A DNA stretch of 37,680 nt from NCBI RefSeq assembly GCF_027322205.1, contig NZ_DAHVHY010000013.1, positions 1-37,680 on the forward strand. The letters are read 5' to 3'. Positions 1 to 37,680 of the stretch are shown one piece after another. Origin of the DNA: Acidithiobacillus sp. GTDB taxonomy: Bacteria > Pseudomonadota > Gammaproteobacteria > Acidithiobacillales > Acidithiobacillaceae. The position numbers and the translations under genes were made by a program. The stretch's first letter is position 1; every line of letters starts with the position of its first letter. The notes beneath the pieces were generated by a model. It did no database searches, was not told the DNA's origin, and saw only the letters and a program-made list of their open reading frames with translations.

Positions 1-44
1 GCGCCGTGACCCGCTACGCCCTGCTGCGTGCTGTTGTCGCTCAT
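1..44 (-). CDS. hdrB: HdrB-like heterodisulfide reductase subunit, second copy, N-terminal fragment
   Basis: An ATG at 44-42 opens a frame running off the left end; its 14 complete codons are identical to those of the hdrB start at the right end. The upstream AAGGAG lies 6 bases before the ATG, so translation signals are intact. HdrB-type subunits of the sHdr complex carry CCG domains that bind non-cubane iron-sulfur clusters and act in cytoplasmic sulfane-sulfur oxidation; that part lies outside the window, so the assignment rests on identity with the copy that follows hdrC. Unlike that copy, this one is not preceded by hdrC but by a 188-nt gap with its own promoter, so it would be expressed separately. 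Whether the rest of the gene is intact cannot be seen. Confidence 0.6.
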   Translation of the reverse strand, partial: MSDNSTQQGVAGHG

Positions 45-55
45 GATGGTCTCCT
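1..55. repeat. Terminal inverted repeat, left copy (hdrB start)
   Basis: Bases 1-55 are the exact reverse complement of 37626-37680; identity stops at base 56 (t here, against c expected). The repeat covers the Shine-Dalgarno, the start codon and the first 14 codons of hdrB. An exact odd-length overlap of 55 at both contig ends is what a de Bruijn assembler leaves when two unique paths enter one repeat node, so this probably marks a genomic repeat longer than 55 bp, not a transposon terminus. Confidence 0.9.
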
Positions 56-113
56 TGGCCGTTAAGCCGCTTGTTGCGAACGAAAATGTTCTACACCTCT
101 CAAGTAGTTGACC

Positions 114-142
114 ATTATGCTCCACAATAATTCCGTTGCCAA
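114..142 (-). promoter_or_regulatory. Sigma70-type promoter of the left hdrB copy
   Basis: On the minus strand TTGGCA (142-137) is followed after exactly 17 nt by CATAAT (119-114); each hexamer matches consensus at five of six positions. The predicted start near 107 gives a leader of about 60 nt to the hdrB ATG. Just downstream, CTAC (91-94) and GTAG (104-107) form a loose inverted repeat that resembles, weakly, the operator-like repeat in front of rhd. The rest of the gap 45-232 shows no gene and no clear promoter for the plus-strand gene at 233. Confidence 0.6.
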
Positions 143-232
143 GTAAATGGCTTTATGATTATCGCTGTGGGTGGCGTGTTGTGTTTACACCTTACAGATG
201 GGCTCGTGGTGCGCTTGTGCACATAAAAACAA

Positions 233-568
233 ATGGATGGGAGTATGAATGAAAATTTGGAACTGATGCAGATTCCGGCACCGGGGGAGATCGCCGAACG
301 TTGCCGTGTGCTCTATCTGGCTCCGGCAGTGTGCAGTAAAGGATGGTTGCCGAACCTGTTCTGGCGGCCTGCGACGCAGGATAATCCCTTTGGGACGTTG
401 CGGGTGGATCCTTGGGAGCTGGAAGTGCTTTTTGCTGCGATCAGCGGTGAACCCGCCCTGTCGCGGGCGGTACTGGAACAGCGCGCCCCCGGTCGCGCTG
501 GATTCATTGAGCGCTCCATCGCCCACGGTGAATTGCCACTGCTGGGTTTTCGTGAGGATATTCCTTAA
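233..568 (+). CDS. Small hypothetical protein preceding rimK-like gene
   Basis: An open frame of 111 codons ends 4 nt before the ATG of the RimK-like ligase, so the two are probably cotranscribed. The first ATG (233) has no Shine-Dalgarno; the second in-frame ATG at 245 sits directly behind GGGAG, too close for an ideal site, so the start is uncertain. The product is soluble, with no signal peptide or membrane segment, and contains a Trp/Pro-rich middle (WLPNLFWRPATQDNPFG) and a C-terminal half predicted helical. I do not recognise the family. Its position suggests it may be a partner or substrate of the ATP-grasp ligase, which is inference only. Confidence 0.55.
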   Translation: MDGSMNENLELMQIPAPGEIAERCRVLYLAPAVCSKGWLPNLFWRPATQDNPFGTLRVDPWELEVLFAAISGEPALSRAVLEQRAPGRAGFIERSIAHGELPLLGFREDIP

Positions 569-572
569 ACTC

Positions 573-1481
573 ATGTCTGCACTGCCCCGCATTGCGATTC
601 TCTCGCGCCATACCGGGTTGTACTCGACCCGCCGTCTGCTGGACGCAGTTGCCGCGGTGGGCGCAGAACCCGTATTACTTCAACCTGAGCATTGCTTGCT
701 GCTGTTAGATAATACCGAGACCCAGCTTTACTACGGATCCTCTCTCTTGGCGCCCTGCACCGCAGTAATTCCGCGAGTAGGTGGTCCGCTGACGCACTTA
801 GGGTCACGCCTGCTCCGTTATTTTGCGGGGGAAGGCAGCTGCTGCCTCAATAGTGCGGAATCGCTGGAGTTGTCCCGCGACAAATTTGCTTCTTTGCAGG
901 TCCTGGTTACCGCGGGGATTGCGGTGCCGAAGACGGCCTATTTCACGCAGATGGGGCAGCGTGATCTGGCGGTATCTGCTCTGGGTACGCCCTTGGTACA
1001 CAAGCTGCTCAGTGGTTCCCAAGGGGTTGGCGTTAGTCTGGCGGAAACGGATATGGCGGCACGGGGGATGCTGGACACCTTCCTCCATCTGCAACACGAA
1101 GCGATGATCCAGCGCTTTCTTCCAGGACGTCAGGATTTTCGGGTAATCGTTCTCTTCGGCGAGGTGATTGCGGCCATGCGCAGGGATGCTTCTGCTGAGG
1201 ATTTTCGCAGCAACCTGCATTGCGGGGGCCAGGCGTCGGCGTTGCTGGATCTGCCGGAAGATTTTGCCGCCATTGCTTGCCTGTCGGTGGCTTCACTGGG
1301 TCTGGGTTTTGCCGGGGTGGATATCATGCTGGCTGAAGATCAGCGGCCCTTGGTGCTGGAAGTGAACCCCGTCCCCAGCCTGGAGGGTATCGAAGGCGTT
1401 ACGGGTAAGGACATCGCCGGTACTCTGGTTAAAGCGCTTTTACAGCAGGCACTGTCCCCATCTTTGCAATCGCAGTCGTAA
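573..1481 (+). CDS. RimK-family ATP-grasp amino-acid ligase
   Basis: The 302-residue product follows E. coli RimK (300 aa) over its whole length: the N-terminal AILSRHTGLYSTRRL segment, the PRVGGPLT loop, the ATP-grasp lysine region (VHKLLSGSQGVGVSLAE), FRSNLHCGGQAS, and the metal/ATP site LEVNPVPSLEGIE near the C-terminus. RimK-type enzymes add glutamate or related amino acids to a carboxylate of a protein or small molecule using ATP; E. coli RimK modifies ribosomal protein S6. The substrate here is unknown. A frame extends upstream to 306 but overlaps the preceding gene; the ATG at 573, four bases after that gene's stop, gives the family's usual N-terminus. The last 53 nt overlap the convergent plsC gene. 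Confidence 0.85.
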   Translation: MSALPRIAILSRHTGLYSTRRLLDAVAAVGAEPVLLQPEHCLLLLDNTETQLYYGSSLLAPCTAVIPRVGGPLTHLGSRLLRYFAGEGSCCLNSAESLELSRDKFASLQVLVTAGIAVPKTAYFTQMGQRDLAVSALGTPLVHKLLSGSQGVGVSLAETDMAARGMLDTFLHLQHEAMIQRFLPGRQDFRVIVLFGEVIAAMRRDASAEDFRSNLHCGGQASALLDLPEDFAAIACLSVASLGLGFAGVDIMLAEDQRPLVLEVNPVPSLEGIEGVTGKDIAGTLVKALLQQALSPSLQSQS

Positions 1482-2157
1482 TCCAGTCTTGCGCTTGTTG
1501 GTTGAGGGCAGCGGCTTTACCTGCAGGGGTTAGTGCGGGGCCGATCTGCACCTCGACCACCCCCGGCCATTTGCGCCAATCCGCGCGTGGCCAGAAGCAT
1601 CCGCTATTCACGGCGATGGGCAGGAGCGGAACCTGAGCGCGAATGGCCAGGCCAGCGGCCGTGCTGCTGAAAGGGCCAACCTCGCCGCAGGGGTGGCGAG
1701 TGCCCTCCGGGAAAATTACGACGTTAAAGCCTGCCGCTAGGCGGATTTTGCCTTCTTCAATCACCTCTACTAAGGCCTGCCGGCCGGCGTCGCGGTCGAT
1801 ACCGATGGGCCAGGACAGGTGCAGGCCCCAGCCAATCACTGGGATACGGAGGAGTTCCTTTTTCAGTACATAGGAGAGTCGTGGGAAGATGCACCAGAGG
1901 AGCAGAGTCTCCAGTGCCGATTGATGGTTGGCGACGATGACGCAGGGCGTGGCGGGAATGTTGGCGAGGCCGCAAACCCGATAACGCAGGCCACAACTCC
2001 AATGGAGCCAGCCGACGCCGGTACGTGCCCATAAACGACTGGTCCAGACCCGCGCCGTCAGCGGCAACAGGGTGACGGTCAGGCTGAAAAAGGCCCAGAC
2101 CAGGGTCCAGATCGTAAAGCCAATGTAGAACAAGCTGCTGCGAATGGTACGTATCAC
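1429..2157 (-). CDS. plsC: 1-acyl-sn-glycerol-3-phosphate acyltransferase (PlsC family)
   Basis: This 242-residue membrane-associated protein has a hydrophobic N-terminus (residues about 8-35) and the acyltransferase blocks: NHQSALE at 77-83, the H-x4-E form of the usual H-x4-D catalytic pair that is common in proteobacterial PlsC, and FPEGTR near 150 for glycerol-3-phosphate binding. It acylates lysophosphatidic acid at the inner membrane to give phosphatidic acid. The start is GTG, overlapping the TGA of gmhB by four bases (GTGA), which implies translational coupling. It is the last gene of glyQ-glyS-gmhB-plsC, an arrangement frequent in gammaproteobacteria. Its 3' end overlaps the convergent rimK-like gene. 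Confidence 0.9.
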   Translation of the reverse strand: MIRTIRSSLFYIGFTIWTLVWAFFSLTVTLLPLTARVWTSRLWARTGVGWLHWSCGLRYRVCGLANIPATPCVIVANHQSALETLLLWCIFPRLSYVLKKELLRIPVIGWGLHLSWPIGIDRDAGRQALVEVIEEGKIRLAAGFNVVIFPEGTRHPCGEVGPFSSTAAGLAIRAQVPLLPIAVNSGCFWPRADWRKWPGVVEVQIGPALTPAGKAAALNQQAQDWITTAIAKMGTVPAVKAL

Positions 2158-8554: not shown

Positions 8555-8563
8555 GATCAAATC

Positions 8564-22998: not shown

Positions 22999-23039
22999 GG
23001 TGTTCTCCTTGTTGGAAAGGCGGACATGCCACCCCAAAA

Positions 23040-23372: not shown

Positions 23373-23408
23373 GAATGCTATCCTCTGTAAAATTGGGGTT
23401 TTCTGGAA

Positions 23409-23921: not shown

Positions 23922-24123
23922 CACAAAAAGTCTCCTTAAGTTTGCTCACTGGTTTAATTCAAAGACTACGTTTCTGCCAAACCCCAGCACCTTGGCGTAA
24001 GGGAGTGGAATTATCGCCAGCGGCGTACGTGTTTACCTCGAATGGCAGAGTCGACTCATCACTGCGCTTCATTAATATGCTCATCTGACACTACAAATCC
24101 CACGGGCGGTGGCGGGCAATGTC

Positions 24124-24140
24124 TAGCAGCTTTCATGCCA
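24124..24140 (-). promoter_or_regulatory. Sigma54 (-24/-12) promoter of the sox operon
   Basis: The minus strand reads TGGCATGAAAGCTGCTA. It matches the consensus TGGCACG-N4-TTGCW except at two positions, and the invariant GG (24139-24138) and GC (24127-24126) are separated by exactly ten bases. It lies between the gene for the sigma54 activator TspR and soxY, with transcription expected from near 24114. Confidence 0.75.
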
Positions 24141-24363
24141 GAGTGGTTTTACGCTCTTGTCACCGGGCGACGGTTGATATTGTAGTAGATTATATGGGGT
24201 GATGCGCCGACACAGCGGACTGAACAGCAGATAAAGTCAGACTATTTTAATCCAAGCTATAAAAGAGGCGTGCGGTGTCGGGTTGAACTGCTATTACCAG
24301 GGATCAGTGGTGCCGACTTCAGGAGGATGTGTGCAGTGCATTCTGGGTGGCTTCTGCTGTGCC

Positions 24364-24392
24364 AAAAGGGCCAGCTCGTGATGGCACGGCCC
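24364..24392 (-). terminator. Possible terminator after tspR
   Basis: On the minus strand GGGCC (24392-24388) and GGCCC (24372-24368) can pair around a 15-base loop and are followed by TTTT. The stem is short and the loop long, so this is only a candidate for ending the phnD-like/tspS/tspR transcript ahead of the sox promoter. Confidence 0.35.
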
Positions 24393-24405
24393 ATTATTTC
24401 TTCCA

Positions 24406-25776: not shown

Positions 25777-25806
25777 GGACTACTCGCTGCTGAATTTCGA
25801 ATGGCT

Positions 25807-27381
25807 CTAACTTAACCTATTTTCGACCTGAGAGGGGAGACGCAGCGGCAAATGCAGGACAAAATCCGCACCGCTTGCCGTGGTACGCAGTTCTACCCCG
25901 CCATCATGCACCATCATGATCTTGGTAACCACGGCTAGCCCGAGCCCGCTGCCTTTAGTTTTGGTGGTGACGTAAGGCTTGAAAATGGTGCTGCGTTTTT
26001 CATCGGGTATGCCAGGACCGTTGTCGCGAACCCCAATATTGAGCTGGTAGTATGGCAGTGACTCTGCATAGAGGGAAATATGACCGCCTGTTGGGGGTAG
26101 GGCGTCTATGGCATTGAGGAGCAGGTTGCTGAGTGCCTGCCCGATCAGCGATGGGTCCAGCAGTGCGTGTAGTGACGGAGAGCAGTCCACAGAAACAGCG
26201 ATGGCTTTGGCCTCCAGATCGACGGTATGGCGTTGTACGCTATGTTTCAGCAAACTACGGATCTCCGTATCTACGGGCATGGCGGCGTAAGGCCTGCCAA
26301 AATCGAGAAAACCCTGGGTCATGTCGTAGAGGCGTTGTACTTCCTCTTCAATGATGCGAATAAAATCCCCCTGATTTTCCTCATTCCCATAGCGTACCAG
26401 ATAGCGTGCGGCGCCCCGCAGAGAAGACAAGGCATTGCGAATCTCATGTGCCACCTGCGCCGACATCTCACCGATGGTGGCCATGCATTGCATGGCTTGC
26501 TGGCGTTGATGTAGCTGCCGAAGTTCCGTCAGATGCTCTTTGAGACGTTGCTCTGTCAGGCGGAATGCACGTTCCAGACGATGCAATTCATCACCGGACA
26601 GGGGTTGGCGCGGTGTTATTGGGCGCTCTTCGAGACCTAGTCGTGCCTCCATGTTCTCGATCTCGCCAAGGAGTCGCAGTACTGGACGCGTCATTGCCAA
26701 GCTCACCAGGTAAGCACCCAATAAACCCAGTAAAGCCGTAATCAAGCCAAGTATCAGCAGGCGGCTGGTCGTGCGATTCAATCGCTGGTTGACGAGTTCG
26801 GCGATCTGCTGGCGATCGCTGTTCACCCAGACGGCACCGAGGCGATGTCCGTCCGCCAGAATGGGGGCCATAAACTGGTCGCCCTGGTGATTCGCCACCT
26901 CGGGCAGTGGCCGCCGGATGGCCTGCCCCAGTTGCGAAATGTTCTTGCTGGCGACAATGACGCCCAGGTGGTTAACCACCATGACCGAGCGCACCAAAGG
27001 ATTATTGGAGTTGGCCAACTTGTTGAGCTTGCCGCCATCCTTGAGGAGCAGCGGATCTGCGGCGTCACTGGCCAGATTCTGGGTCAGGCGCATCAGTTCA
27101 GTCTGCACCTGGCTGGTAAGATCCGTACGTACAGAGGTATACAGAAAGAGGGCAATCAAAAGATAGATGAGGGCCACCAGCAAGAGCACAAAAGCCATGC
27201 TCTTGGCACGCCAGGTCATATTCTGCCAAGACCGCAAGATGGGATGTACCACCACGATATAGGACCGGGTCAAATTGCGCACGATGCGCGCCAAGAAGGT
27301 GTGTAACGTGCTTACCTCATGTGGGTCTGGAGAGGTGCTGCCGCGCACCGATACCTGGTCGTCCTTGAAAGAGCTGCTCAT
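25807..27381 (-). CDS. tspS: TspS-type sensor histidine kinase
   Basis: A membrane-bound histidine kinase of 524 residues. An unusually long N-terminal cytoplasmic tail (about 60 residues) precedes TM1 (about 62-83); a periplasmic domain of about 120 residues (VMVVNHLGVIVASKNISQLGQ, AVWVNSDRQ) is followed by TM2 (about 207-230), HAMP, and a kinase core with H312 in the H box (QVAHEIRNALSSLRG), N box NLLLNAIDALP, and G boxes DNGPGIPDE and GSGLGLAVV. It should phosphorylate TspR. Its ATG overlaps the stop of the PhnD-like gene (ATGA), suggesting that kinase and binding protein are made in fixed proportion. Confidence 0.9.
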   Translation of the reverse strand: MSSSFKDDQVSVRGSTSPDPHEVSTLHTFLARIVRNLTRSYIVVVHPILRSWQNMTWRAKSMAFVLLLVALIYLLIALFLYTSVRTDLTSQVQTELMRLTQNLASDAADPLLLKDGGKLNKLANSNNPLVRSVMVVNHLGVIVASKNISQLGQAIRRPLPEVANHQGDQFMAPILADGHRLGAVWVNSDRQQIAELVNQRLNRTTSRLLILGLITALLGLLGAYLVSLAMTRPVLRLLGEIENMEARLGLEERPITPRQPLSGDELHRLERAFRLTEQRLKEHLTELRQLHQRQQAMQCMATIGEMSAQVAHEIRNALSSLRGAARYLVRYGNEENQGDFIRIIEEEVQRLYDMTQGFLDFGRPYAAMPVDTEIRSLLKHSVQRHTVDLEAKAIAVSVDCSPSLHALLDPSLIGQALSNLLLNAIDALPPTGGHISLYAESLPYYQLNIGVRDNGPGIPDEKRSTIFKPYVTTKTKGSGLGLAVVTKIMMVHDGGVELRTTASGADFVLHLPLRLPSQVENRLS

Positions 27382-28907
27382 GATCTGGGCGAACTAAAGT
27401 TCTGAAAGCCCGTGCCGCTCATGGCCTCTGCGGGTAGCGCCAGGACCTTCTTTTTCACTCGATCGCGCAACTCCGCCGGTAACTGGCGGTTGGCAGCCAG
27501 TGTCCAGGCTGGTGCATCTCCCGCATGCTGTATAATGGACCAGGTTCCGGGTAATTCCTTTTCCAGAGCAGTGATGGTTGCTACCCGAACAACGCCCAAC
27601 TGCACCTTTCCGTCGGCCAGGTGGGTGAGTACGGCGCGCTCTGATCCCACGGCTAACCAAACGATGGTGCGTCCGTTTGCGAGCTTATGCAGTTTTCCCG
27701 TCGCAATAGACTTCCCACTGCAATAGGGACTGGCATAGGCGACCGACAGCGGATTGGATAATCTCAGCTTGCTCTCCTTCGGGGCATCGCGCGCGATGAT
27801 GGCCAGCCCCTGTTCGTGTTTGTGCGGCACTGATTCTGCGAGCGGAATCATCCATTCCTTCTCTGCGGGTACCATTTTAGGTGTCAGCAAGGCGAAGTCA
27901 AAACGTCCCTTGCGCCCATCTGCGACATAGGTGTTTTCATTACGGGGTATGACTATTTGGACGGGGCGGTGGGTGATTCGAGATAATGCCTCTTGTAGCG
28001 GCGCAAAAATACGATAGGCAGAAAGGGGAGTGAACGTGGGTGGAATACCGAGTGTCAGGGCCTCCTGCCCAACCTTGGGATTCAAGGCGACACCGTGTAT
28101 GTCTATATAGAGCGTACGCAGTACGTTGTAGTCTTCATCGCTGACGGGCTGAAAGCCTGCAGCCAGTCCACCTAAAGCATGGATGGCAGCCGGATCGGCC
28201 CGATCAACCTGTAGAAGAGCAGCGGTCAGGCGCGATCGTACGGCCGCCGGAACCTCGGATGAAGCGGCTAGCAGGTCGCCTGGCCCTACATCAGCGCGGG
28301 CGATAATACGCAAACTGCCTGAACGCAAGTAGGGCGCCGCTACATTTTCTGCCACGGCCGTCGCGTCGTAGAAGCGTGCGGCCACATCCATCAGAGCGCT
28401 TTGGTCAGAGCCGCTCTGACGAAAGGTGCTGAAGCTTTTGCGTGTGAGTCCTACTTCGTGGAACAGCGACAGGGGAATCAGCGATGAAGCCGCACAGGCC
28501 GGATCTCCCATCACGAAGCTCTGGTTGCGGAGCTGGAGGATGGTGTGAATGTTGCTATCCTTGCGTACGACAATCACACTATGATTCCCGCCAGAGGTGG
28601 GTGTTACCCCAACCAGTGGTTGGTAGGCTTCAGTATGGGCGGTGCGAATATAGGAAATCGGGCAAAACAGGGCAATCTGTGCCGTCGGTTTCTCGGCCTC
28701 ATTATAAAAGTTTTCCAGATTGGCACTGAAGCTGAGGGTAACCTTCTGGCCGACTGCCTGACTCAGATACTTGGCGAGCGGTGTGAATGCGGCATACATC
28801 ACCGCTGGGCTGCTGACCGGCGGCAGCAAAAAGCGCAGATTGGCCTGCGCAGACATACTGAAAAAACAGAGGATCATCCACAGCCAGAGGCGTTTGGGGA
28901 AAGTCAT
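27378..28907 (-). CDS. Tandem PhnD-like periplasmic binding protein coupled to tspS
   Basis: A 509-residue exported protein with a signal peptide ending AQA (about residue 22) and two consecutive PhnD/phosphonate-binding-like modules: LRFLLPPVSSPAVMYAAFTPLAKYLSQAVG starts the first (about 24-260), and LGIPPTFTPLSAYRIFAPLQEALSRITHR starts the second (about 288-500). No ABC permease or ATPase genes lie nearby, so transport is unlikely. The same fold forms the sensor domain of the tetrathionate kinase TtrS, and this gene overlaps tspS by four bases; I infer that it is the ligand-sensing partner of TspS. The ligand is unknown. AGGAAG precedes the ATG; moaC is divergent, 58 nt away. Confidence 0.8.
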   Translation of the reverse strand: MTFPKRLWLWMILCFFSMSAQANLRFLLPPVSSPAVMYAAFTPLAKYLSQAVGQKVTLSFSANLENFYNEAEKPTAQIALFCPISYIRTAHTEAYQPLVGVTPTSGGNHSVIVVRKDSNIHTILQLRNQSFVMGDPACAASSLIPLSLFHEVGLTRKSFSTFRQSGSDQSALMDVAARFYDATAVAENVAAPYLRSGSLRIIARADVGPGDLLAASSEVPAAVRSRLTAALLQVDRADPAAIHALGGLAAGFQPVSDEDYNVLRTLYIDIHGVALNPKVGQEALTLGIPPTFTPLSAYRIFAPLQEALSRITHRPVQIVIPRNENTYVADGRKGRFDFALLTPKMVPAEKEWMIPLAESVPHKHEQGLAIIARDAPKESKLRLSNPLSVAYASPYCSGKSIATGKLHKLANGRTIVWLAVGSERAVLTHLADGKVQLGVVRVATITALEKELPGTWSIIQHAGDAPAWTLAANRQLPAELRDRVKKKVLALPAEAMSGTGFQNFSSPRS

Positions 28908-28965
28908 GTTCGCTTCCTGAGTCGCGCGTGTCCTATGGCCTTAAGCAAAAGGAGTGCCAGATTAT

Positions 28966-29475
28966 ATGTCCAGTCTCGACAACCTCAATCATTTTAATGG
29001 GCTTGGTGACGCACACATGGTCGACGTCGGCGGAAAAGCGGTAACCATTCGAGCGGCACTGGCGGCGGGCGAAATCGTCATGGCGGCAGCGACGCTGGAG
29101 TGCATAGAATCTGGACGGATGGGGAAGGGCGATGTTCTGGGAGTGGCACGCATCGCGGCCATTCAGGCCACCAAAAAAACATGGGAACTGATCCCTTTGG
29201 CACACCCCTTGCTCCTCACGGGTGTCGAAGTCGAATTGACTCCTGCTCATGACCCGGCGCGGATCGTTTGCCGGGCCGAAGTGCGCTGTGCTGGCCAGAC
29301 GGGTGTCGAGATGGAAGCCCTCACGGCGGTTTCCGTGGGTTTGCTCACGATTTACGACATGTGCAAAGCCATAGATCGTGGGATGTTGCTGCAAAACATC
29401 GGCCTCTTGCGGAAAGATGGCGGCAAGACGGGCCTCTGGGAGAGAGATCAGGCGTCCTGTCTGCCCTCCGCCTGA
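28966..29475 (+). CDS. moaC: Cyclic pyranopterin monophosphate synthase
   Basis: MoaC converts the MoaA product to cyclic pyranopterin monophosphate in molybdenum-cofactor synthesis. The 169-residue protein carries the family signatures: [75 protein letters not shown] with the active-site lysine and aspartate. The ATG at 28966 is used with AAAGGAG eleven bases upstream; a GTG at 28954 lies within that site and is unlikely. It is divergent to the PhnD-like gene and stands before soeABC on the same strand, with one small opposite gene between. Confidence 0.95.
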
Positions 29476-29479
29476 TTAC

Positions 29480-29785
29480 CTACTTACCGCGGCTTGGTGA
29501 AGAGCTGTAACGCACCATCACATCCCGATCCTTCCAGTTCGCCTCTTTCAGGATCTCATCAGGGATCATGTAGCGATCTTGCGGTGCCACATCCTGAAAC
29601 TTCACCACGCGCAGGACGTCGCTGAAGGCAAGTTTGCGCAACAAGCCGTCTTTGTCTGTAGCGCGGACGATCATGGCGTCCTTGAGGAGGGCGTAGACGT
29701 AGAAATTACCGGGGCGCAGCTTGCCTTCCTTATCCTTCCAGGTAATGGTAATGCGCGAATGTTCTTTGAACTCATTGCGAATCAT
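29480..29785 (-). CDS. Hypothetical small protein between moaC and soeA
   Basis: The 101-residue product has an AAGGAG nine bases before its ATG, which supports a real gene on the strand opposite its neighbours. It is strand-rich and highly charged, without signal peptide or membrane segment: SRITITWKDKEGKLRPGNFYVYALL, then MIVRATDKDGLLRKLAFSDVLRVVKF and a basic tail. I do not recognise a family. It converges with moaC (4 nt between the stops) and diverges from soeA, so it may share the 177-nt regulatory gap with soeA. Confidence 0.65.
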   Translation of the reverse strand: MIRNEFKEHSRITITWKDKEGKLRPGNFYVYALLKDAMIVRATDKDGLLRKLAFSDVLRVVKFQDVAPQDRYMIPDEILKEANWKDRDVMVRYSSSPSRGK

Positions 29786-29843
29786 GAGTGAATCTCCTTG
29801 GATTGAGTGCCCTTAAACTACTCACCGCGCCGGGTGCAAAGCA

Positions 29844-29928
29844 AATAAGAGCTACTTATTACAAAATCAAAAACGCTGACTTGCTTTATCAGGTCTGCTC
29901 CGCCAACATCTCGGGGATAACGAGATGT
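29844..29928. promoter_or_regulatory. Two inverted repeats in the soeA upstream gap
   Basis: The gap 29786-29962 contains AATAAG-N5-CTTATT (29844-29860) and, closer to soeA, ACATCTCG-N7-CGAGATGT (29906-29928) with perfect eight-base arms. The second ends 35 nt before the soeA ATG and is not followed by a T run, so an operator or a leader hairpin is more likely than a terminator. No convincing -35/-10 pair was found. Confidence 0.55.
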
Positions 29929-29962
29929 CCCCAATTTGGTGCATGCAGACGCGAGGTACAAG

Positions 29963-32821
29963 ATGGCTACCGTCATGGAATTTGAAGACCACAGCAAGCA
30001 GGAGATTAAATATACGACTTGCTACATGTGCGCTTGCCGTTGTGGCATCAAGATCACGGTAGAGGATAATAAGGTACGATTTATTCAGGGCAATCGCAAC
30101 CACCCGATCAATCAGGGCGTCCTCTGTGCAAAAGGTTCCGCCGGAATCATGAAGCAGTATTCCCCCGGGAAGCTGCGTAATCCACTGCGGCGTAAGCCGG
30201 GTACCGAGCGTGGTGCTGGTGAGTTTGAAGAAATCTCCTGGGATGAGGCCATCGATACCCTGACCCAGCGTCTCGCCCACATCCGGGCCACGGACCCCAA
30301 CAAACTCGCCTTTTTTACTGGTCGGGACCAGATGCAGGCACTTACCGGCCTGTGGGCGCAACAGTTCGGTACGCTCAACTGGTCTGCTCATGGCGGCTTC
30401 TGTTCGGTGAACATGGCCACTGCGGGTTTGTATATGTTGGGGCATGCCTTCTGGGAGTTTGGCGACCCGGACTGGGACCGCACCAAGTACTTCATGCTCT
30501 GGGGCGTCGCTGAAGACCATTCTTCCAACCCCTTGAAAATCGGACTGGAGAAGCTCAAGCGCCATGGCGGCAAATTTGTCGGTATCAATCCGGCGCGCAC
30601 CGGCTATCAGGCTATTGCGGATGAGTGGGTGCCTATCAAACCAGGCACTGATGGGCTGCTGGCGCTCTCCATGGTGTATGTACTTTTGCAGAATGAACAG
30701 TTCGACTGGGATTTCCTCCTACGCTACACAAATGCCCCCTTCCTTGTGGTCAACACCCCTGGCCAAAAGGGTGATGGCCTGATTCTACGCGATGCCGAAG
30801 GGCATCCCATGATTTGGGATCTCAAAAAAGAGGCGTTTGCCAATGGGATGGAAGCCGGTTCCAGTGGTGCCCTCTTTGGCGAATATACCGCGCCAGATGG
30901 GAGACCCGTGCGTACCGTCATGTCCGTGCTCACTGAGCGTTATCTGGATGATCGTTTCTCGCCCAAAAATGCCAGCAAGATTACCGGGATTCCTGCCGAG
31001 ACCATTGAACGTCTGGCCCTTGAAATGGCCCATGTGGCCTTTAAGGAAAGCATTGAAATCGAAGTGGAGTGGACCGACTGGGCGGGCCGCAAGCACGACA
31101 AGTTCATCGGGCGCCCGGTGTCCATGCATGCTATGCGCGGTATCTCTGCCCACTCCAACGGTATGCAATCGGCCCGTGCTATCCACTTGCTCCAGGTTTT
31201 GCTGGGCACCATCGACTGTCCTGGTGGCTTCCGCTCCAAAGCGCCATACCCCAAGCCGGTACCACCGCCCAACAAGCCAGCCCAGCACAGCGCACCCAAT
31301 ACGCCACTTAAATCGTTGCCGCTGGGCTTCCCGACAGCACCGGAAGATTTGGTCATTGATGAAAATGGCCGGCCCAAGCGCATCGACAAGGCTTATTCCT
31401 GGGAGGCGCCCATCGCCAACCATGGTCTGATGCATATGGTTATCACCAACGCAGTCAACAAAGATCCTTATGCCCTCGATACGCTGATCTTCTTTATGGC
31501 GAACATGAGTTGGAATTCCACCATGAACACGGCCAACGTACAGGAAATGCTTAAATCCAAGGACGACGATGGCGAGTACAAGATTCCTTTCCTGGTGGTC
31601 GTAGATGCCTTCCATTCCGAAATGGTCAATTTCGGCGATCTGATTCTACCTGACACCACCTATCTGGAGCGCTACGACGCCATTTCTCTACTTGATCGCC
31701 CTATTTCGGAACCGGACGCGATTTGTGACTCCATTCGCCACCCCATTCTCCAGCCCGACCGCAACGTGCGGCCCTGGCAGGAAGTGATGGTGGATATCGC
31801 CAGTCGTCTCAAGTTTCCGGCATTCACCAAAGAGAATGGAGAGCCCCGGTTTACGGGCTATAAAGACTTCATTATCAACTATGAGCGGGCACCGGGTATT
31901 GGTTTCCTGGCGGGCTGGCGTGGCGCGGATGGTAATAGCCACCTGCGTGGCGAGCCGAACCCCAATCAGTGGGACCGGTATATCGAAAATCAAGGGTTCT
32001 TCAAGTATCACCTGCCGGAATCCATGGCTTTTTACCGCTTTGGCAACAAGGATTATCTGGAGTTGGCGCAGCGCGTTGGCTTCAATCCGACGGCTGATCC
32101 CATTGTTATCGAATTGTATTCTGAGACCTTCCAGCGCTTCCGTTTGGCGGGACAGGGGCTTTACGATGGGCCGCAGCCCAAAGATCCGGTGGATCGCGAA
32201 CGCCTGGCAACCTATTTTGATCCTCTGCCCGATTTCTATGAGCCTTTAGAACAGCAGCGTATCGACAAGAAGGAATATCCCTTCTACGCCGTCAACCAGC
32301 GGCCGATGATGATGTACCACTCCTGGGACAGTCAGAATGCCTGGTTGCGCCAGATCATTGCCCAGAACTATCTCTATATGAACCGTCAGCGCGGCCTGCA
32401 GATGGGTATTGAGGATAAAAGCTGGGTTTGGGTAGAGAGTCATAACGGTAAAATTCGCGTGCAGGTCAAGCTCATTGAAGGCTGCCAGGCAGATACGGTG
32501 TGGACCTGGAATGCCATTGGCAAACAATCGGGCGCCTGGGGGTTGAAACCAGACGCTCCTGAAGCAACTCGTGGTTTCCTGATGAACCATCTCATCTCCG
32601 AGTTGCTGCCGGCTAGGCAGGGTGAGCGGCGTCTGACGAACTCCGATCCGATCACCGGTCAGGCCGCCTGGTATGACCTGATGGTCAAGATCTACCCGGC
32701 ATCCCCTGGAGACGAGGGCACTTGGCCGACATTCCCGACCATGAAGCCTCTACCCGGAGACATCCCTGCCCCTGACGTGCTGCGTTATCACACCCACAAG
32801 CCCGTCAACCTGAAATCCTGA
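29963..32821 (+). CDS. soeA: SoeA-like molybdopterin catalytic subunit of sulfite dehydrogenase
   Basis: A cytoplasmic molybdoenzyme of the DMSO-reductase family, 952 residues, close to the length of Allochromatium vinosum SoeA. It has no twin-arginine signal. The N-terminal [4Fe-4S] motif is C20-x2-C23-x3-C27 with C55 (QGVLCAKG); molybdopterin-binding stretches follow throughout, including KFVGINPARTGYQAIADEWVPIKPGTDGLL and, near the end, the dinucleotide-binding domain (NYLYMNRQRGLQMGIEDKSWVWVES). SoeABC oxidises cytoplasmic sulfite to sulfate and feeds quinones; polysulfide/tetrathionate reductase subunits are related, so substrate is inferred from context. The ATG at 29963 has GAGG six bases upstream; a TTG at 29936 also opens the frame. 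Confidence 0.82.
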   Translation: MATVMEFEDHSKQEIKYTTCYMCACRCGIKITVEDNKVRFIQGNRNHPINQGVLCAKGSAGIMKQYSPGKLRNPLRRKPGTERGAGEFEEISWDEAIDTLTQRLAHIRATDPNKLAFFTGRDQMQALTGLWAQQFGTLNWSAHGGFCSVNMATAGLYMLGHAFWEFGDPDWDRTKYFMLWGVAEDHSSNPLKIGLEKLKRHGGKFVGINPARTGYQAIADEWVPIKPGTDGLLALSMVYVLLQNEQFDWDFLLRYTNAPFLVVNTPGQKGDGLILRDAEGHPMIWDLKKEAFANGMEAGSSGALFGEYTAPDGRPVRTVMSVLTERYLDDRFSPKNASKITGIPAETIERLALEMAHVAFKESIEIEVEWTDWAGRKHDKFIGRPVSMHAMRGISAHSNGMQSARAIHLLQVLLGTIDCPGGFRSKAPYPKPVPPPNKPAQHSAPNTPLKSLPLGFPTAPEDLVIDENGRPKRIDKAYSWEAPIANHGLMHMVITNAVNKDPYALDTLIFFMANMSWNSTMNTANVQEMLKSKDDDGEYKIPFLVVVDAFHSEMVNFGDLILPDTTYLERYDAISLLDRPISEPDAICDSIRHPILQPDRNVRPWQEVMVDIASRLKFPAFTKENGEPRFTGYKDFIINYERAPGIGFLAGWRGADGNSHLRGEPNPNQWDRYIENQGFFKYHLPESMAFYRFGNKDYLELAQRVGFNPTADPIVIELYSETFQRFRLAGQGLYDGPQPKDPVDRERLATYFDPLPDFYEPLEQQRIDKKEYPFYAVNQRPMMMYHSWDSQNAWLRQIIAQNYLYMNRQRGLQMGIEDKSWVWVESHNGKIRVQVKLIEGCQADTVWTWNAIGKQSGAWGLKPDAPEATRGFLMNHLISELLPARQGERRLTNSDPITGQAAWYDLMVKIYPASPGDEGTWPTFPTMKPLPGDIPAPDVLRYHTHKPVNLKS

Positions 32822-32839
32822 CGCGCCAAGGAGACTGAC

Positions 32840-33532
32840 ATGAGACTCGGTTTGGTCATTGATCTGGACACTTGCGTAGGTTGCCATGCCTGCGCAGTAG
32901 CCTGTAAGGAATGGAATACCAGCGGTACGACGGCGCCACTGACGGACTACGACCCCTATGGTGCCAAGCCCTCTGGCGTGTGGTTCAACCGCATCCGTCA
33001 CTTTGAGGTGGGTGACTACCCCTACAATAAAACCATTAATTTTCCCATGTCCTGCATGCACTGTGAGAACGCTGAATGCGTGACCGTGTGTCCGACCGGT
33101 GCCTCTTACAAGCGCGCTGAAGACGGCATTGTCCTGGTCGATCAGAATAAATGCATGGGCTGCAACTACTGTTCCTGGGCCTGTCCTTATGGTGCCCGCG
33201 AACTGGATCGCGTCTCTGGCACCATGAAGAAATGCACACTTTGCATTGACCGCATTTATGACATGGAGATTCCGGAAGAAGAGCGCCAGCCAGCCTGCGT
33301 GTTGACCTGTCCGGCACACGCCCGTATGTTCGGCGATGTTGACGATCCGGAAAGTCCAGTGAGCCGTGCGGTACGCGAGCGGGGCGGTTACCAACTCATG
33401 CCGGAGCTCGACTATAATCCCACAAATCACTATTTGCCCCCCCGTGTCCACGCCCCTATCCCGATCGAAGAGCTCAAGAAAAAGGCTGTTCGCAAGGTGA
33501 AGGAGTGGGTCAATCGCGTCGTTGAGCGTTAA
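32840..33532 (+). CDS. soeB: SoeB-like four-cluster ferredoxin subunit
   Basis: The 230-residue electron-transfer subunit has four cysteine groups for [4Fe-4S] clusters: C12-x2-C15-x2-C18-x3-C22 (CVGCHACAVAC), CMHCENAECVTVCP, CMGCNYCSWACP, and CTLCIDRIYD with the distal PACVLTCP. It passes electrons from SoeA to the membrane subunit. There is no signal peptide, matching the cytoplasmic SoeA. It starts 18 nt after soeA with AAGGAG ahead, and soeC follows after nine bases. Confidence 0.88.
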   Translation: MRLGLVIDLDTCVGCHACAVACKEWNTSGTTAPLTDYDPYGAKPSGVWFNRIRHFEVGDYPYNKTINFPMSCMHCENAECVTVCPTGASYKRAEDGIVLVDQNKCMGCNYCSWACPYGARELDRVSGTMKKCTLCIDRIYDMEIPEEERQPACVLTCPAHARMFGDVDDPESPVSRAVRERGGYQLMPELDYNPTNHYLPPRVHAPIPIEELKKKAVRKVKEWVNRVVER

Positions 33533-33541
33533 GGAGATCCC

Positions 33542-34480
33542 ATGCATCCGGCTCTCGCAGTTATATTCCTGACCCTGTTCTCCGGTGGTGGTTTTGGCAT
33601 CATGGCCCTCACGGCCATCGCCAATGACTTCCAGATTGACGGAGGACTTAATCCATTGCAGACGATGATTGCGGTGATTCTTTCCCTCGTTTTCGTCAGC
33701 ATCGGTATGTTGTCCTCCACCGCCCATCTCGCGAATCCCAAAAATGCCTGGCGGGCCTTCACCCGCTGGCGCACTTCCTGGCTGGCGCGTGAGGGGGTTT
33801 TTGCGGTGCTCTATTATCCGTTCGCGGTGCTCTATCTGCTCTGGGTTTTCTTTACCAGTGGTACCCACGACGTCGCCGGGCTGATTCTGTTGAATCTGGC
33901 CGGAGTGATCGGGCTCATTACCATTTTCTGCCAAGGCATGATTTACGCCGTATTGCGCACGATTCGTCAGTGGAATACAGCGCTGGTCCCCGCCAACTTT
34001 TACGTTATGGGCTTAGCTATCGGCGCTACGGTGCTGGCCGCAGAGCGGATTATCATGGGCGCTCCGGCGGGCACGCTGGTGGGTATCGCTCTGGCCCTGT
34101 TGGCCGCATCCGCCGTCATGAAGGGGATCTATTATTTCTGGATTAGTCGTCCAGGTGGCCCGACCATACGTACCGCTACTGGTTTCAATCGTTCTACCGT
34201 GCGCATTCTGGAACAGGGACATACCTTTGGTACCTTCCTGACAGAAGAATTCGGACATTCCTTGTCGGCGGCTAATGCGCGGAGCATCAAAGTCATTATG
34301 TACATCTTCGCTTTTGTCATCCCTATTGCCGCATTGGTGATCGGTATTGTCACCGGGCAGTCGGCCTTCGCCTGGATTGCCGTTCTGTCGGTCGTCTTCG
34401 GAATTGGCGTGGAGCGCTGGCTGTTTTTTGTCGAAGCGCAGCATGTAGTCAACCTCTATCATGGTCGCCAGCAGTGTTGA
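33542..34480 (+). CDS. soeC: SoeC-like DmsC-type membrane anchor
   Basis: A 312-residue integral membrane protein with about eight hydrophobic segments, of the DmsC-type anchor family that links the iron-sulfur subunit to the quinone pool. The N-terminus MHPALAVIFLTLFSGGGFGIMAL and the RAFTRWRTSWLAREGVFAVL segment are typical. AAGGAG precedes the ATG, nine bases after soeB. In the forward direction sulfite electrons would enter the quinone pool here. The gap to moaA is 63 nt and contains no clear terminator, so moaA may be on the same transcript. Confidence 0.87.
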   Translation: MHPALAVIFLTLFSGGGFGIMALTAIANDFQIDGGLNPLQTMIAVILSLVFVSIGMLSSTAHLANPKNAWRAFTRWRTSWLAREGVFAVLYYPFAVLYLLWVFFTSGTHDVAGLILLNLAGVIGLITIFCQGMIYAVLRTIRQWNTALVPANFYVMGLAIGATVLAAERIIMGAPAGTLVGIALALLAASAVMKGIYYFWISRPGGPTIRTATGFNRSTVRILEQGHTFGTFLTEEFGHSLSAANARSIKVIMYIFAFVIPIAALVIGIVTGQSAFAWIAVLSVVFGIGVERWLFFVEAQHVVNLYHGRQQC

Positions 34481-34543
34481 GCTCAGTCTCAAAAGAGGGC
34501 TAGTATAGATTTTCAAGGGAGCAGTCCCCAAGGAGTGGAAGGC

Positions 34544-35572
34544 ATGTCGCAGGGGTTACTTGCAGAACCGATACGGGAAACCGCGTTAGCGGACCAGTTC
34601 GCTCGGCACGTCACTTACCTGCGAATTTCGGTGACTGAGCACTGCAACTTTCGCTGTGATTACTGCTCTCCTGAAGAGGGGACCCCCTTCTTCGCACGGG
34701 ACGACCATCTTCAGGCAGAAGAATATGACCGCCTGATTCGTATTTTCAGCGGGCTTGGCGTCCGCCATATGCGTTTTACGGGTGGTGAACCACTCATTCA
34801 TCCGCGGATTCTTTCTCTCGTCGGCTCCGCACGTCGTCATGGTGTGGGCAAGATCAGTATCAGTACGAATGGGTTACTGTTAGGGCGTCACGCCGAGGCA
34901 CTGCGTCAGGCAGGCGTCAATAATTTGAATATCAGTCTCGACAGTCTTGATCCTGAAGTCTTTGCACGGGTGACTCGGGGCGGTGACTTGCACTGTGTGC
35001 TGGACGGTATCGAAGCAGCTATTCTCGCGAAAATTCCACGGATTAAACTCAATGTCGTGCTGCTTCGCCGGGATAACGGAAACGGCCTGCTGGCGCTGGT
35101 GGCGTACGCGATGCAGCGCGGTATCGACATACGCTTTATTGAGACTATGCCCTTGGGCGCGGCTGGGGCGGGCGTCCAGGAAGTGCAATTTTTGAGCGCC
35201 GCGGAAGCCCAGCAAGTCATAGAGCAGCAATTTGGTCCGCTGCAACCCGTGACTAGGCCCGCGGATAATGGCCCTGCACGTCTCTATCAGCTTCCGGCAG
35301 TGCGCTCCCAGGTGGGCTTTATTACCCCCATCAGCAATGATTTTTGTGCAACCTGTAATCGGGTACGCCTCACAGCGGCGGGGCGCCTGGTGTATTGTCT
35401 GGGTCAGGATAGTGGATTGGAACTTTTGCCTCTCATGCGGGGGTCGAATAGCGACAGGCAGATTGCCGAGGCGATTACTCAGGGTATCTGGCGCGATAAA
35501 CCGGAACGGCATCAGTTTGTAAGTGATCCAAGCCGTTCTGCGCGGGTGTTCATGATGCGACTCGGGGGGTAG
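34544..35572 (+). CDS. moaA: GTP 3',8-cyclase MoaA
   Basis: MoaA is the radical-SAM enzyme for the first step of molybdenum-cofactor synthesis from GTP. The 342-residue protein shows the N-terminal cluster motif C34-x3-C38-x2-C41 (CNFRCDYC), the MRFTGGEPL segment, ISTNG, NISLDSLD, the C-terminal cluster site FCATCNRVRLTAAGRLVYC, and the conserved C-terminal Gly-Gly needed for catalysis. The ATG at 34544 follows AAGGAG by eight bases; the GTG at 34535 overlaps that site. With moaC upstream, the two Mo-cofactor genes bracket soeABC. Confidence 0.96.
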   Translation: MSQGLLAEPIRETALADQFARHVTYLRISVTEHCNFRCDYCSPEEGTPFFARDDHLQAEEYDRLIRIFSGLGVRHMRFTGGEPLIHPRILSLVGSARRHGVGKISISTNGLLLGRHAEALRQAGVNNLNISLDSLDPEVFARVTRGGDLHCVLDGIEAAILAKIPRIKLNVVLLRRDNGNGLLALVAYAMQRGIDIRFIETMPLGAAGAGVQEVQFLSAAEAQQVIEQQFGPLQPVTRPADNGPARLYQLPAVRSQVGFITPISNDFCATCNRVRLTAAGRLVYCLGQDSGLELLPLMRGSNSDRQIAEAITQGIWRDKPERHQFVSDPSRSARVFMMRLGG

Positions 35573-35676: not shown

Positions 35677-36009
35677 ATGTACGGTTTTCAAGAAATCACC
35701 GCCGATCAGCTCAAAGCCTTGACGGAACAGGGGGATGCGTTCACCTTGATTGATGTGCGCTCGCCCGGCGAAGTCGCACGGGGTGTCATTGATGGTGCCA
35801 GACACCTGCCTTTGCACCTGTTGCCTATGTCGTTGCAGCACATGGATAAATCGCAACCAGTGGTTTTTTACTGCCTGAGCGGTGGGCGTTCGGCACAGGC
35901 AGCTGCCTTCGCGGCGGCGCAGGGCTTCGGCCAAGTACTTAATTTGCGGGGAGGAATATCTGCCTGGGCCAATCTGGGCTTCCCCATTGTGCAGTTGTCT
36001 GGTCAATAA
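35677..36009 (+). CDS. rhd: Rhodanese (sulfurtransferase)
   Basis: A single-domain cytoplasmic rhodanese of 110 residues with the active-site loop CLSGGRS (C66) and the motifs LIDVRSPGEVARGVIDGARHLPL and LRGGISAWANLGFPI. It moves sulfane sulfur as a persulfide on C66. In Acidithiobacillus and related sulfur oxidisers rhd-tusA-dsrE precede the hdr genes and pass sulfur to the sHdr complex; the order here is the same. The gene is the first of the cluster. Confidence 0.93.
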   Translation: MYGFQEITADQLKALTEQGDAFTLIDVRSPGEVARGVIDGARHLPLHLLPMSLQHMDKSQPVVFYCLSGGRSAQAAAFAAAQGFGQVLNLRGGISAWANLGFPIVQLSGQ

Positions 36010-36129
36010 GGATACTCTAAAATAGGGGTGCTTAATCATCAAATCAAAATATTTGCCTTGCTGTTCATGCTTTTCCTGATAGAGTCTTGCAAGTAGTTTT
36101 TCAGACATCATAACCGAGGAGGTTAACCC

Positions 36130-36360
36130 ATGGTACAAGAAGACAAGGTACTCGACGCCCGCGGACTGAATTGCCCGTTGCCGATTCTCCGCACCAAGAA
36201 GGCGCTTGGTGAACTGACCTCTGGACAGGTCTTGAAGATCGTTGCTACTGATCCAGGCGCCGTAAAGGACTTTGAAGCATTTTCCAAGCAGACCAAGAAT
36301 CCGCTGCTGGATCAGGCGGAAGCCGCTGGCGAGTTCATCTTTTTTATCCAGAAGGCCTAA
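36130..36360 (+). CDS. tusA: TusA-family sulfur carrier
   Basis: A 76-residue cytoplasmic sulfur carrier with the conserved LDARGLNCPLPIL motif; C15 of CPxP takes the persulfide. A strong GAGGAGG lies eight bases before the ATG. TusA accepts sulfur from the rhodanese and DsrE proteins and is an essential donor of the sHdr pathway. A 120-nt gap separates it from rhd; a second promoter there is possible, but the hexamers I see (TTGCTG-N16-TAGAGT) are weak. Confidence 0.95.
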   Translation: MVQEDKVLDARGLNCPLPILRTKKALGELTSGQVLKIVATDPGAVKDFEAFSKQTKNPLLDQAEAAGEFIFFIQKA

Positions 36361-36404
36361 TTTAACAGGGTTGGGAAGCAAAGCCCGACCGGGAGCACAA
36401 AACA

Positions 36405-36875
36405 ATGGACGAGAAAAAGTTAGCAATTATTGCCACGAAGGGCACTCTGGATTGGGGCTATCCGCCCTTCATTCTGGCATCTACCGCAGCAGCGCTCGGC
36501 TATGGGGTTGAGATATTCTTCACCTTCTATGGCTTGCAGTTGTTGAAGAAGGACTTGAGCCATCTGCGCGTGAGCCCGCTCGGGAATCCCGCAATGCCGA
36601 TGCCGATACCGATGCCGACGCTGATGATGGTGCTTCCGGGTATGGAAGGAATGGCCACATCCATGATGAAGAGCAAAATGAAGGCAAAGGGTGTCGCTAG
36701 TCTTGAAGAGCTGCGTGAACTCTGTGTTGAAGCTGAAGTGCGGATGATTGCCTGTCAGATGACCGTTGATCTTTTCGAGTTTGATACGGCTGATTTCATT
36801 GATGGCATTGAACTTGGTGGCGCTGCCTCGTTCTTCGAGTTTGCCGGAGAGTCTGATATTACGCTCTTTATGTGA
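36405..36875 (+). CDS. dsrE: DsrE2-like sulfurtransferase
   Basis: The 156-residue protein belongs to the DsrE/DsrF-like group. KLAIIATKGTLDWGYPPFILASTAAALGYGVEIFFTFYGLQLLKK is typical, with a Met-rich middle (PMPIPMPTLMMVLPGM) and cysteines C107 and C117 in LCVEAEVRMIACQMTVDLF, where the family holds its persulfide. It works with TusA in sulfur transfer. The Met/Pro-rich loop is a known feature of DsrE2 types, which sit at the membrane in some species. It follows tusA by 44 nt and precedes hdrC by 64 nt. Confidence 0.92.
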   Translation: MDEKKLAIIATKGTLDWGYPPFILASTAAALGYGVEIFFTFYGLQLLKKDLSHLRVSPLGNPAMPMPIPMPTLMMVLPGMEGMATSMMKSKMKAKGVASLEELRELCVEAEVRMIACQMTVDLFEFDTADFIDGIELGGAASFFEFAGESDITLFM

Positions 36876-36939
36876 ACTACCGATCTGCACAGATGGTCAA
36901 CAGGGGTGACGTAATTAATTGCGAGCGAGGAGCGAGTAA

Positions 36940-37626
36940 ATGGCGACTTACGCTGAGATGAAAGAGATGTTTGACGAAGTCCGCGCGGATTTTCGTTATG
37001 ACCACGAACTCAATGGATGTTTGAATTGTGGCATTTGTACGGCTACCTGCCCGTCTGCGCAGTTCTATGATTACAGTCCTCGTGAAATTGTTCAATTATT
37101 GTGGACAGAAAATGTCGAGCAAATATATGATGCGATGCAGGAAAAAATCTGGGCTTGCGCGCAGTGCATGACCTGCGCAGCGCGTTGTCCCTTCAAGAAT
37201 TCTCCTGGTGGTCTGGTCATGATCATGCGCGAAGTTTCTATTCGCCATGGCATGCAGTCGGCGAAAGATGTGCTGCGTCCCTTCGGTCGCGTCATGCTCA
37301 AACTGATCACCACGGGCAACCAACTCTCTCCAGACATGATTCAGCCCGATCATTTTCCGGATTGGGGTCCCAATATCCAGAAGGTCGAAGGTGATCTGCG
37401 GATCCTGCGTAAAGCTATCCCGGTGCGCACCTTGCAAACCGTGGAAACGGCGTGGGAAGTTTCGCTGAAAACCTCCGTGGAGATGTACACCATCTGGGAA
37501 ATGACAGGCGTACTCAAATCCTTGGAAACCATGGACGAGAATCTCTTTGATGTTATTGAAGATTTCATTGACGAGAAGCGTGAAGATTATGAAGACTGGC
37601 TCGCGAGCCAGAGTGATAAGGACTGA
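36940..37626 (+). CDS. hdrC: HdrC-like iron-sulfur subunit of the sHdr complex
   Basis: A 228-residue protein with two [4Fe-4S] ferredoxin motifs: C27-x2-C30-x2-C33-x3-C37 (CLNCGICTATC) and C73-x2-C76-x2-C79-x3-C83 (CAQCMTCAARC). It transfers electrons within the cytoplasmic sHdr complex, which oxidises sulfane sulfur (from TusA) to sulfite. The C-terminal 100 residues are helical and end in an acidic tail. GAGGAG lies eight bases before the ATG. The downstream hdrB starts ten bases after the stop, consistent with hdrC-hdrB-hdrA order. Confidence 0.94.
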   Translation: MATYAEMKEMFDEVRADFRYDHELNGCLNCGICTATCPSAQFYDYSPREIVQLLWTENVEQIYDAMQEKIWACAQCMTCAARCPFKNSPGGLVMIMREVSIRHGMQSAKDVLRPFGRVMLKLITTGNQLSPDMIQPDHFPDWGPNIQKVEGDLRILRKAIPVRTLQTVETAWEVSLKTSVEMYTIWEMTGVLKSLETMDENLFDVIEDFIDEKREDYEDWLASQSDKD

Positions 37627-37680
37627 GGAGACCATCATGAGCGACAACAGCACGCAGCAGGGCGTAGCGGGTCACGGCGC
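37626..37680. repeat. Terminal inverted repeat, right copy (hdrB start)
   Basis: Exact reverse complement of bases 1-55. Identity begins at the last base of the hdrC stop codon and runs through the hdrB ribosome-binding site and first codons to the end. See the left copy for interpretation. Confidence 0.9.
37637..37680 (+). CDS. hdrB: HdrB-like subunit, N-terminal fragment
   Basis: An ATG at 37637, ten bases after the hdrC stop and with GAGGAG overlapping that stop, opens a frame that runs off the right end after 14 codons (MSDNSTQQGVAGHG). The identity is inferred from the conserved order rhd-tusA-dsrE-hdrC-hdrB in Acidithiobacillus; no CCG motif is visible yet. The same codons start a second copy at the left end in opposite orientation. 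Confidence 0.7.
   Translation, partial: MSDNSTQQGVAGHG

Follow-up and report, generated by a model that had tools for sequence, protein, structure and literature searches.

The window analyzed here, a stretch of 37,680 nucleotides, is the entire contig C44 of the draft genome G000 (150 contigs, 2.28 Mb), a member of the Acidithiobacillaceae, and it is cut at both ends within hdrB1, a gene predicted to encode a subunit of the sulfur-oxidizing sHdr complex. Very probably, two outward-facing and mostly homogenized copies of hdrB1 bracket a sulfur island, and the assembler collapsed them, cutting the contig at both ends. The contig would represent the inside of a sulfur-metabolism island of 26–39 kb that is bracketed by outward-facing hdrB1 copies in all Acidithiobacillaceae examined. 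Both copies would have been in place before the radiation of the family. The second one (copy b) lies next to a RimK-like ATP-grasp gene, is preceded by a conserved sigma-70 promoter of its own and leads into orf109 and queH in most relatives. Later gene conversion would have kept the copies nearly identical in most lineages, over the gene only, and the assembler would have merged the two identical genes, leaving an overlap of one k-mer (55 bases) where it cut the contig.

Window positions 1–55 and 37626–37680 are exact reverse complements, and the matching stops at base 56. Each end carries the ribosome-binding site of hdrB1, its first 14 codons and two more bases, reading outward; at the right end the first base of the repeat is also the final base of the hdrC1 stop codon (AGGAGACCATC). 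An exact match of 55 bases at both contig ends is not due to chance. The right copy (copy a; 37626..37680, plus strand) has its ATG at 37637, 10 bases past hdrC1 (36940–37626), and is recognized by its inverted match to positions 1–55 and by the order hdrC1-hdrB1-hdrA in relatives. The left copy (copy b; 1..55, minus strand, ATG at 44–42) is preceded by an intergenic region with a promoter and then by hyp111 and the RimK-like ATP-grasp gene, which the second hdrB1 of relatives also adjoins. Both are 5′ ends cut by the contig end. A sequence-only reading of the window had described the reverse-complementary ends with the hdrB ribosome-binding site and first codons, as well as the differing flanks (hdrC at the right, hexamers with five of six consensus bases and 17-nt spacing at the left), and a direct comparison of both ends and the sequence of the flanks agree with it. 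The nearest matches to hdrC1 of the window are found in Acidithiobacillus genomes and metagenome bins.

A second hdrB1 across the family

We searched 29 Acidithiobacillaceae genomes (G000–G028) with HdrB1, annotated the flanks and added a search with the ATP-grasp protein. In all 29 genomes, hdrB1 sequence adjoins a marker of locus b (hyp111/ATP-grasp or orf109/queH); in G019 the sole locus-b hdrB1 runs into hdrA, and a copy a apart from it was not seen. The copies are outward-facing in each of the 19 genomes in which a single contig carries both upstream flanks, either with hdrB1 at both ends (16 genomes: G000, G002, G003, G005, G007, G008, G009, G011, G012, G015, G016, G017, G021, G022, G026, and G028) or with hdrB1 trimmed off (G018, G023, and G025); the flanks of the other 10 genomes are on separate contigs or missing. 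Where both copies are seen, ~26 to 39 kb separate their start codons. On the downstream side of copy b, orf109 is present in 22 of the 25 genomes in which this flank was read, the exceptions being G023 and G024 (queH without orf109) and G026 (neither); for G010, G012, G019, and G027 the flank was unread or absent. The Pfam names of the genes after copy b come from their G016 versions. The earlier proposal of two near-identical, inverted hdrB copies about 37.5 kb apart is thus borne out, the complete relatives having the same arrangement. The duplication of a longer hdr block, which the same reading had left open, was rejected: in the four genomes tested (G002, G003, G007, and G016) the repeat measures 1324–1342 bp and is limited to hdrB1.

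Nor is an extra, separately driven hdrB unusual, as had been supposed. It occurs in 29 of 29 family genomes examined and is already known for A. ferrooxidans, where it has been published as AFE_2586. Passages of Quatrini et al. (PMC2754497) count AFE_2586 among three HdrB and describe it, like both A. ferrooxidans hdrB genes, as higher on sulfur, and passages of PMC6450195 describe an increase of the AFE_2586 protein, and of both hdrB proteins, in pyrite biofilm cells. The pair AFE_2554 and AFE_2586 of A. ferrooxidans ATCC 23270 resembles the pair studied here in that, according to passages of PMC2754497 and PMC5506826, one gene lies in the hdr operon and the other stands alone with its own promoter, and the promoter pattern is common to copy b of A. 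ferrooxidans and copy b of the window. The difference from the A. ferrooxidans pair is that the copies of G007, G003, and G008 have diverged to ~90%, with much of the divergence falling within the first 375 nt, whereas the ends of the window are identical. The sHdr operon hdrC1B1A-hyp-hdrC2B2, as given in passages of PMC6335251, is similar to the window in gene order and in the upstream rhd, tusA-like gene, dsrE, and hdrC1; here, an extra hdrB1 lies outside the operon and, together with the first, brackets a sulfur island.

In the sister family (G029 and G030) extra hdrB1 copies exist, but none of the seven stretches fetched showed an ATP-grasp or orf109 neighbor. These copies (L227–L233) are at other places, some of them at contig ends. 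Two further observations concern additional hdrB1-like sequences within the family. G016 contains two more hdrB1-like genes (L202, L203; 81% identical to copy a) within a 4.3-kb stretch that is present twice on the chromosome with 99.7% identity, and G011 has extra rearranged hdr fragments on small contigs (L191, L192), arranged as hdrB1-hdrC2-hdrC1 and hdrB1-hdrA.

Promoter of copy b

Ahead of copy b we find a sigma-70-type promoter (114..142, minus strand) with a −35 hexamer TTGGCA (142–137), a 17-nt spacer and a −10 hexamer CATAAT (119–114), each hexamer having five of six consensus bases. The pattern TTGGC[A/T], 17-nt spacing and a −10 hexamer precedes copy b in all 22 genomes aligned (the 29 except G004, G006, G018, G023, G024, G025, and G027), amid a poorly conserved surrounding region. 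The −35 element reads TTGGCA in 19 of these genomes and TTGGCT in three, and the −10 element reads CATAAT in 17 and is one base off in five. According to passages of PMC5506826, the transcription start of A. ferrooxidans hdrB (AFE_2586) was mapped by 5′ rapid amplification of cDNA ends (5′ RACE) and the region is bound by RegA in gel shifts. The copy b promoter of the window matches this mapped region, which agrees with the earlier claim of a separately promoted second hdrB, and the promoter stretch published there is found letter for letter in G007.

Likely homogenization of the copies

Copies a and b are 97.97–99.92% identical in eight of the 11 genomes compared (G002, G009, G011, G016, G017, G021, G022, and G026), while like copies compared between ten tabulated genomes are ~82–93% identical in most pairs (95–98% for G003/G007 and G011/G016). 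The two copies of G002 are 100% identical over 1342 bp in one alignment and 99.92% over 1332 in another (one end mismatch), with no difference at the four-fold sites or the first and second codon positions counted. In a maximum-likelihood tree the copies of one genome are sisters at 99–100% bootstrap in seven of the 11 genomes; the value is 53% for G011, and the copies of G003, G007, and G008 (the latter partial, 1185 nt) do not pair. The approximately unbiased (AU) test rejects a tree that unites all a copies (p-AU 8e-37). The group for this test was chosen after a first tree of 30 copies, and the test tree comprised 22 of them (G018b, G028b, G011c, G011d, G016c, G016d, G019x, and G019y were omitted).

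Silent sites follow the same pattern. Within the eight homogenized genomes, 0–14 of 186–205 four-fold sites differ, compared to 18–68 of 172–189 in six between-genome pairs from this group. Identity that is higher within than between genomes, silent sites included, is the mark of concerted evolution, and it is seen in eight of 11 genomes by identity and in seven of 11 by sister pairing; for the genome of the window, concerted evolution rests on the 55 identical bases. Since the position of the locus is inherited and the copies agree within genomes, we infer concerted evolution, and gene conversion is its simplest and most likely cause.

Duplicated genes kept identical by gene conversion are familiar from tufA/tufB and the rRNA operons. 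As in those, distant copies are homogenized within genomes and over the gene only. The hdrB1 pair differs in being a catabolic enzyme subunit, in forming an outward-facing pair around a conserved island and in that one group has escaped. Among the matches listed in the open-licence PMC literature (titles, abstract starts, and passages) we found nothing on an inverted hdrB1 pair or its gene conversion. What is new here is the identity of the copies within genomes at inherited positions, and hence their likely homogenization; the second copy itself was known.

Probable collapse of the copies in draft assemblies

Contig C16 of G000 begins with a 3′ piece of hdrB1 (codons ~395–444), followed by orf109, a pterin dehydratase-like gene and a queH-like gene, and this flank (orf109, queH) is the outer flank of copy b. 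Because C16 holds hdrB1 from codon ~395, the identical stretch in G000 probably begins at the ribosome-binding site and extends to around codon 413, a length of ~1.25 kb. A search of G000 for the CCG family matched two further contigs (C106 and C73); from their length and position we regarded these hits as other CCG proteins.

The drafts of relatives also break within hdrB1. On the upstream side the arms overlap exactly by 55 bases in G000, 127 in G013, 126 in G001, 124 in G005, 116 in G010, 88 in G020, 84 in G015, and 78 in G008; in G028 (126) and G012 (103) one arm ends inside the other, in G014 there is no overlap and G023 is trimmed ahead of the gene. On the downstream side the exact overlaps are 198 bases in G004, 127 in G013, G023, and G025, 124 in G005, 88 in G020, and 55 in G006, with 55 and an offset in G014 and with 125 in G001, 125 in G028, 83 in G015, and 77 in G008, where the compared ranges are 1–2 bases short on one contig. 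The upstream and downstream values are thus exactly equal in G005 (124), G013 (127), and G020 (88), and agree within one base in G001, G008, G015, and G028. Such equality is what a collapsed node of a k-mer graph would leave behind, and 55 and 127 are common k-mer sizes; the 55 bases of the window are therefore most likely an overlap of this kind. The sequence-only reading, which had the assembly broken at a 55-nt overlap, was therefore right about a break at the repeat, and the 55 bases are not the length of the repeat.

Published drafts may have suffered in the same way. The A. thiooxidans A01 contig with sox cluster II opens with a partial HdrB, as stated in a passage of PMC4109375, which looks like the same break, and the A. 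caldus MTH-04 draft, in which only hdrB and hdrC were found according to a passage of PMC3440390, may be another case of it at hdrB1. As drafts break at hdrB1, hdrB or hdrA can drop out of bins and gene inventories.

Alternative explanations

Contigs with inverted identical ends can come from chimeric amplification, and the left end of the window could be such a chimeric or palindromic artifact of assembly in a genome with a single hdrB. We regard this as extremely improbable: the left flank (promoter, hyp111, ATP-grasp, acyltransferase) precedes the second hdrB1 in complete as well as draft relatives, and its promoter was mapped experimentally in A. ferrooxidans, according to passages of PMC5506826. 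The sister pairing of copies from one genome would also be expected if hdrB1 had been duplicated recently and independently in each lineage. The second copy, however, occupies a single position across the four genera of the family: the ATP-grasp gene flanks it on one side and, in 22 of 25 flanks read, orf109 on the other, and the same promoter pattern lies ahead of it. Recent duplications are very unlikely because they would require repeated insertion at one site in one orientation. Strong purifying selection without any exchange could be invoked as well, HdrB1 being highly conserved (0–3 of 888–894 first and second codon positions changed within the eight homogenized genomes), but the near-identity of the four-fold sites within genomes, set against their divergence between genomes, leaves this reading with hardly any likelihood.

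Several observations weigh against two collapsed and homogenized copies. The body of hdrB1 is absent from the G000 bin, in which the copies are visible only as the 55 bases and the 3′ piece on C16, and neither hdrA nor hdrC2 was found there by searches identical to those that found both genes in the controls G013 and G016. A direct comparison of contig ends gives an overlap of 0 or 1 in four of 12 upstream pairs (G012, G014, G023, and G028), because the contigs end at differing positions. In some drafts, G002 above all, the identity of the copies could be inflated by strain-level replacement or assembler consensus. Microarray probes may cross-hybridize between the two A. ferrooxidans hdrB copies. 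Finally, conversion is not universal, as copies a and b are only 89.45–90.56% identical in G003, G007, and G008.

In these three genomes the a copies and the b copies form separate clades, and the differences between them are mostly in the first 375 nt and in nt 963–1110. Over nt 361–960, copies a and b agree at 94–100% in 14 of the 15 bins of 120 bases (84% in one G008 bin). This is about the likeness that G003 and G007 show to each other in these bins, and partial exchange in this part of the gene is conceivable. The three genomes share a set of 24 amino acid changes between copies a and b (residues 4–395), 17 of them at residues 43–122, with the cysteine columns kept; specialization of copy b is a possible reading of this set. 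At 89–91% identity, the A. ferrooxidans group has escaped homogenization.

Orientation of the island

Invertible DNA segments are flipped by homologous recombination between inverted repeats, and the sulfur island likewise has near-identical repeats in inverted orientation, and a flip would exchange the promoters beside them. It differs from such segments in its size (26–39 kb) and in that its flipping is a proposal. If recombination between the hdrB1 copies flipped the island as a real, recurring process, hdrA-orf2-hdrC2-hdrB2 would be driven either by the promoter of the rhd operon (state A) or by that of copy b (state B), and the copy b promoter and an intact hdrB1 would keep every subunit expressed in both orientations.

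We consider such flipping unlikely. It is favored by the near-perfect, outward-facing repeats of ~1.3 kb in most genomes with both copies and by two assemblies. G002 (A. ferrianus MG) is collinear with G003, G007, and G016 inside the island and swapped outside of it, with breakpoints inside hdrB1, and in G019 the ATP-grasp/promoter side is joined to hdrA, with an N-terminal part that is b-like (92% identical to copy b of G020, 86% to its copy a). However, state A (hdrC1-hdrB1-hdrA) is found in nine of the nine other genomes in which a contig spans copy a and reaches hdrA (G003, G007, G009, G011, G016, G017, G021, G022, and G026). G002 was sequenced with Illumina pairs of ~460-bp insert, according to a passage of PMC7040056, which cannot cross an exact repeat of 1342 bp; its swap may therefore be a misjoin, and the perfect identity of its copies may also be an assembly effect. 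We dropped G002 as proof of inversion for this reason, and G019 as a second flipped case since it is fragmentary (71% complete, 140 contigs; hdrC1 not found). As single assemblies per species, the two are suggestive only. The window itself is uninformative on orientation: its contig reads identically either way, because a flip changes only which outer flank joins each copy.

It seems doubtful that the two hdrB1 genes turn the whole sulfur island into a slow switch, driven by recombination, that moves hdrA-orf2-hdrC2-hdrB2 from the rhd operon promoter to that of copy b. If they did, the second hdrB1 with its own promoter would be kept for making both orientations viable, the exchange that flips the island would also homogenize the copies, and the promoter that passages of PMC5506826 describe as bound by RegA in A. 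ferrooxidans would take over hdrA-orf2-hdrC2-hdrB2.

Gene content of the window and the island

The first gene at the left end, hyp111 (245..568, plus strand), is divergent from copy b and encodes a small protein of no known family (no Pfam or NCBIfam match). It is paralogous to orf109 (G000:C16, L207 326–646), with 37% identity over 92 aa. Copy b thus sits between two small paralogs, neither of them with a Pfam or NCBIfam match. The inner marker of locus b, the gene for the RimK-like ATP-grasp ligase (573..1481, plus strand), matches PF08443 (3.5e-33) and TIGR00768 above its cut-off and is found in the family; it is followed by a plsC-like acyltransferase gene (1429..2157, minus strand; PF01553, 7.3e-24).

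Further inside the island, the minus strand encodes soxB (20155–21894), a DUF302 protein (21901–22437), soxZ (23040–23372), soxY (23409–23924), a sigma-54 response regulator (24406–25776), a histidine kinase (25807–27381), and a solute-binding protein (27378–28907). On the plus strand, family searches identified moaC, genes for a molybdopterin oxidoreductase, an Fe-S subunit and a DmsC-like anchor, and a moaA-like radical SAM gene (28954..35572). By comparison with the cluster named in a passage of PMC6335251, the oxidoreductase trio is soeABC-like. Between moaC and the oxidoreductase gene lies an open reading frame of 101 aa on the minus strand (29480–29785) without a Pfam match. Two parts of the window, 20001–28938 (sox and two-component genes) and 29892–34453 (soeABC-like genes), have no nucleotide match in the island of G003. 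The content of the island varies and its ends are constant.

At the right end, all on the plus strand, are a rhodanese gene (rhd, 35677..36009; PF00581, 5.8e-21), a reading frame of 76 aa (36130..36360) that, given its CPxP motif, would encode a putative tusA-like sulfur carrier, and the gene for a DsrE2-type sulfur carrier (dsrE, 36405..36875; PF13686, NF047629 above cut-off). The inner marker of locus a, hdrC1 (36940..37626), encodes an HdrC-like dicluster 4Fe-4S protein. Its orthologs are 97–100% identical in 15 of 16 other genomes of the genus and 11 of 12 other genomes of the family; the search of the family genomes did not find hdrC1 in G006 and G019. The window therefore contains rhd through the start of hdrB1, and the order in relatives is rhd-dsrE-hdrC1-hdrB1-hdrA-orf2-hdrC2.

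The CCG domain of HdrB1 is seen in the G016 ortholog (P0001), which matches PF02754 at 5e-07 in a single stretch; the NCBIfam HdrB models match it as well, but below their cut-offs. All 30 copies compared retain ten cysteine columns, except that the two partial G008 rows lack coverage of the tenth.

Implications for the sHdr system

Under its own promoter, copy b most likely supplies extra or separately timed HdrB1, and in most species the subunit would stay interchangeable through conversion. The presence of a second, separately promoted hdrB1 in every family genome examined, mostly near-identical to the first, argues that how much of it is made, or when, matters to sHdr, a poorly understood enzyme. 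It may be that copy b is acquiring a distinct role in the A. ferrooxidans group, and the homogenized genomes and this divergent group together form a natural experiment on what copy b does.

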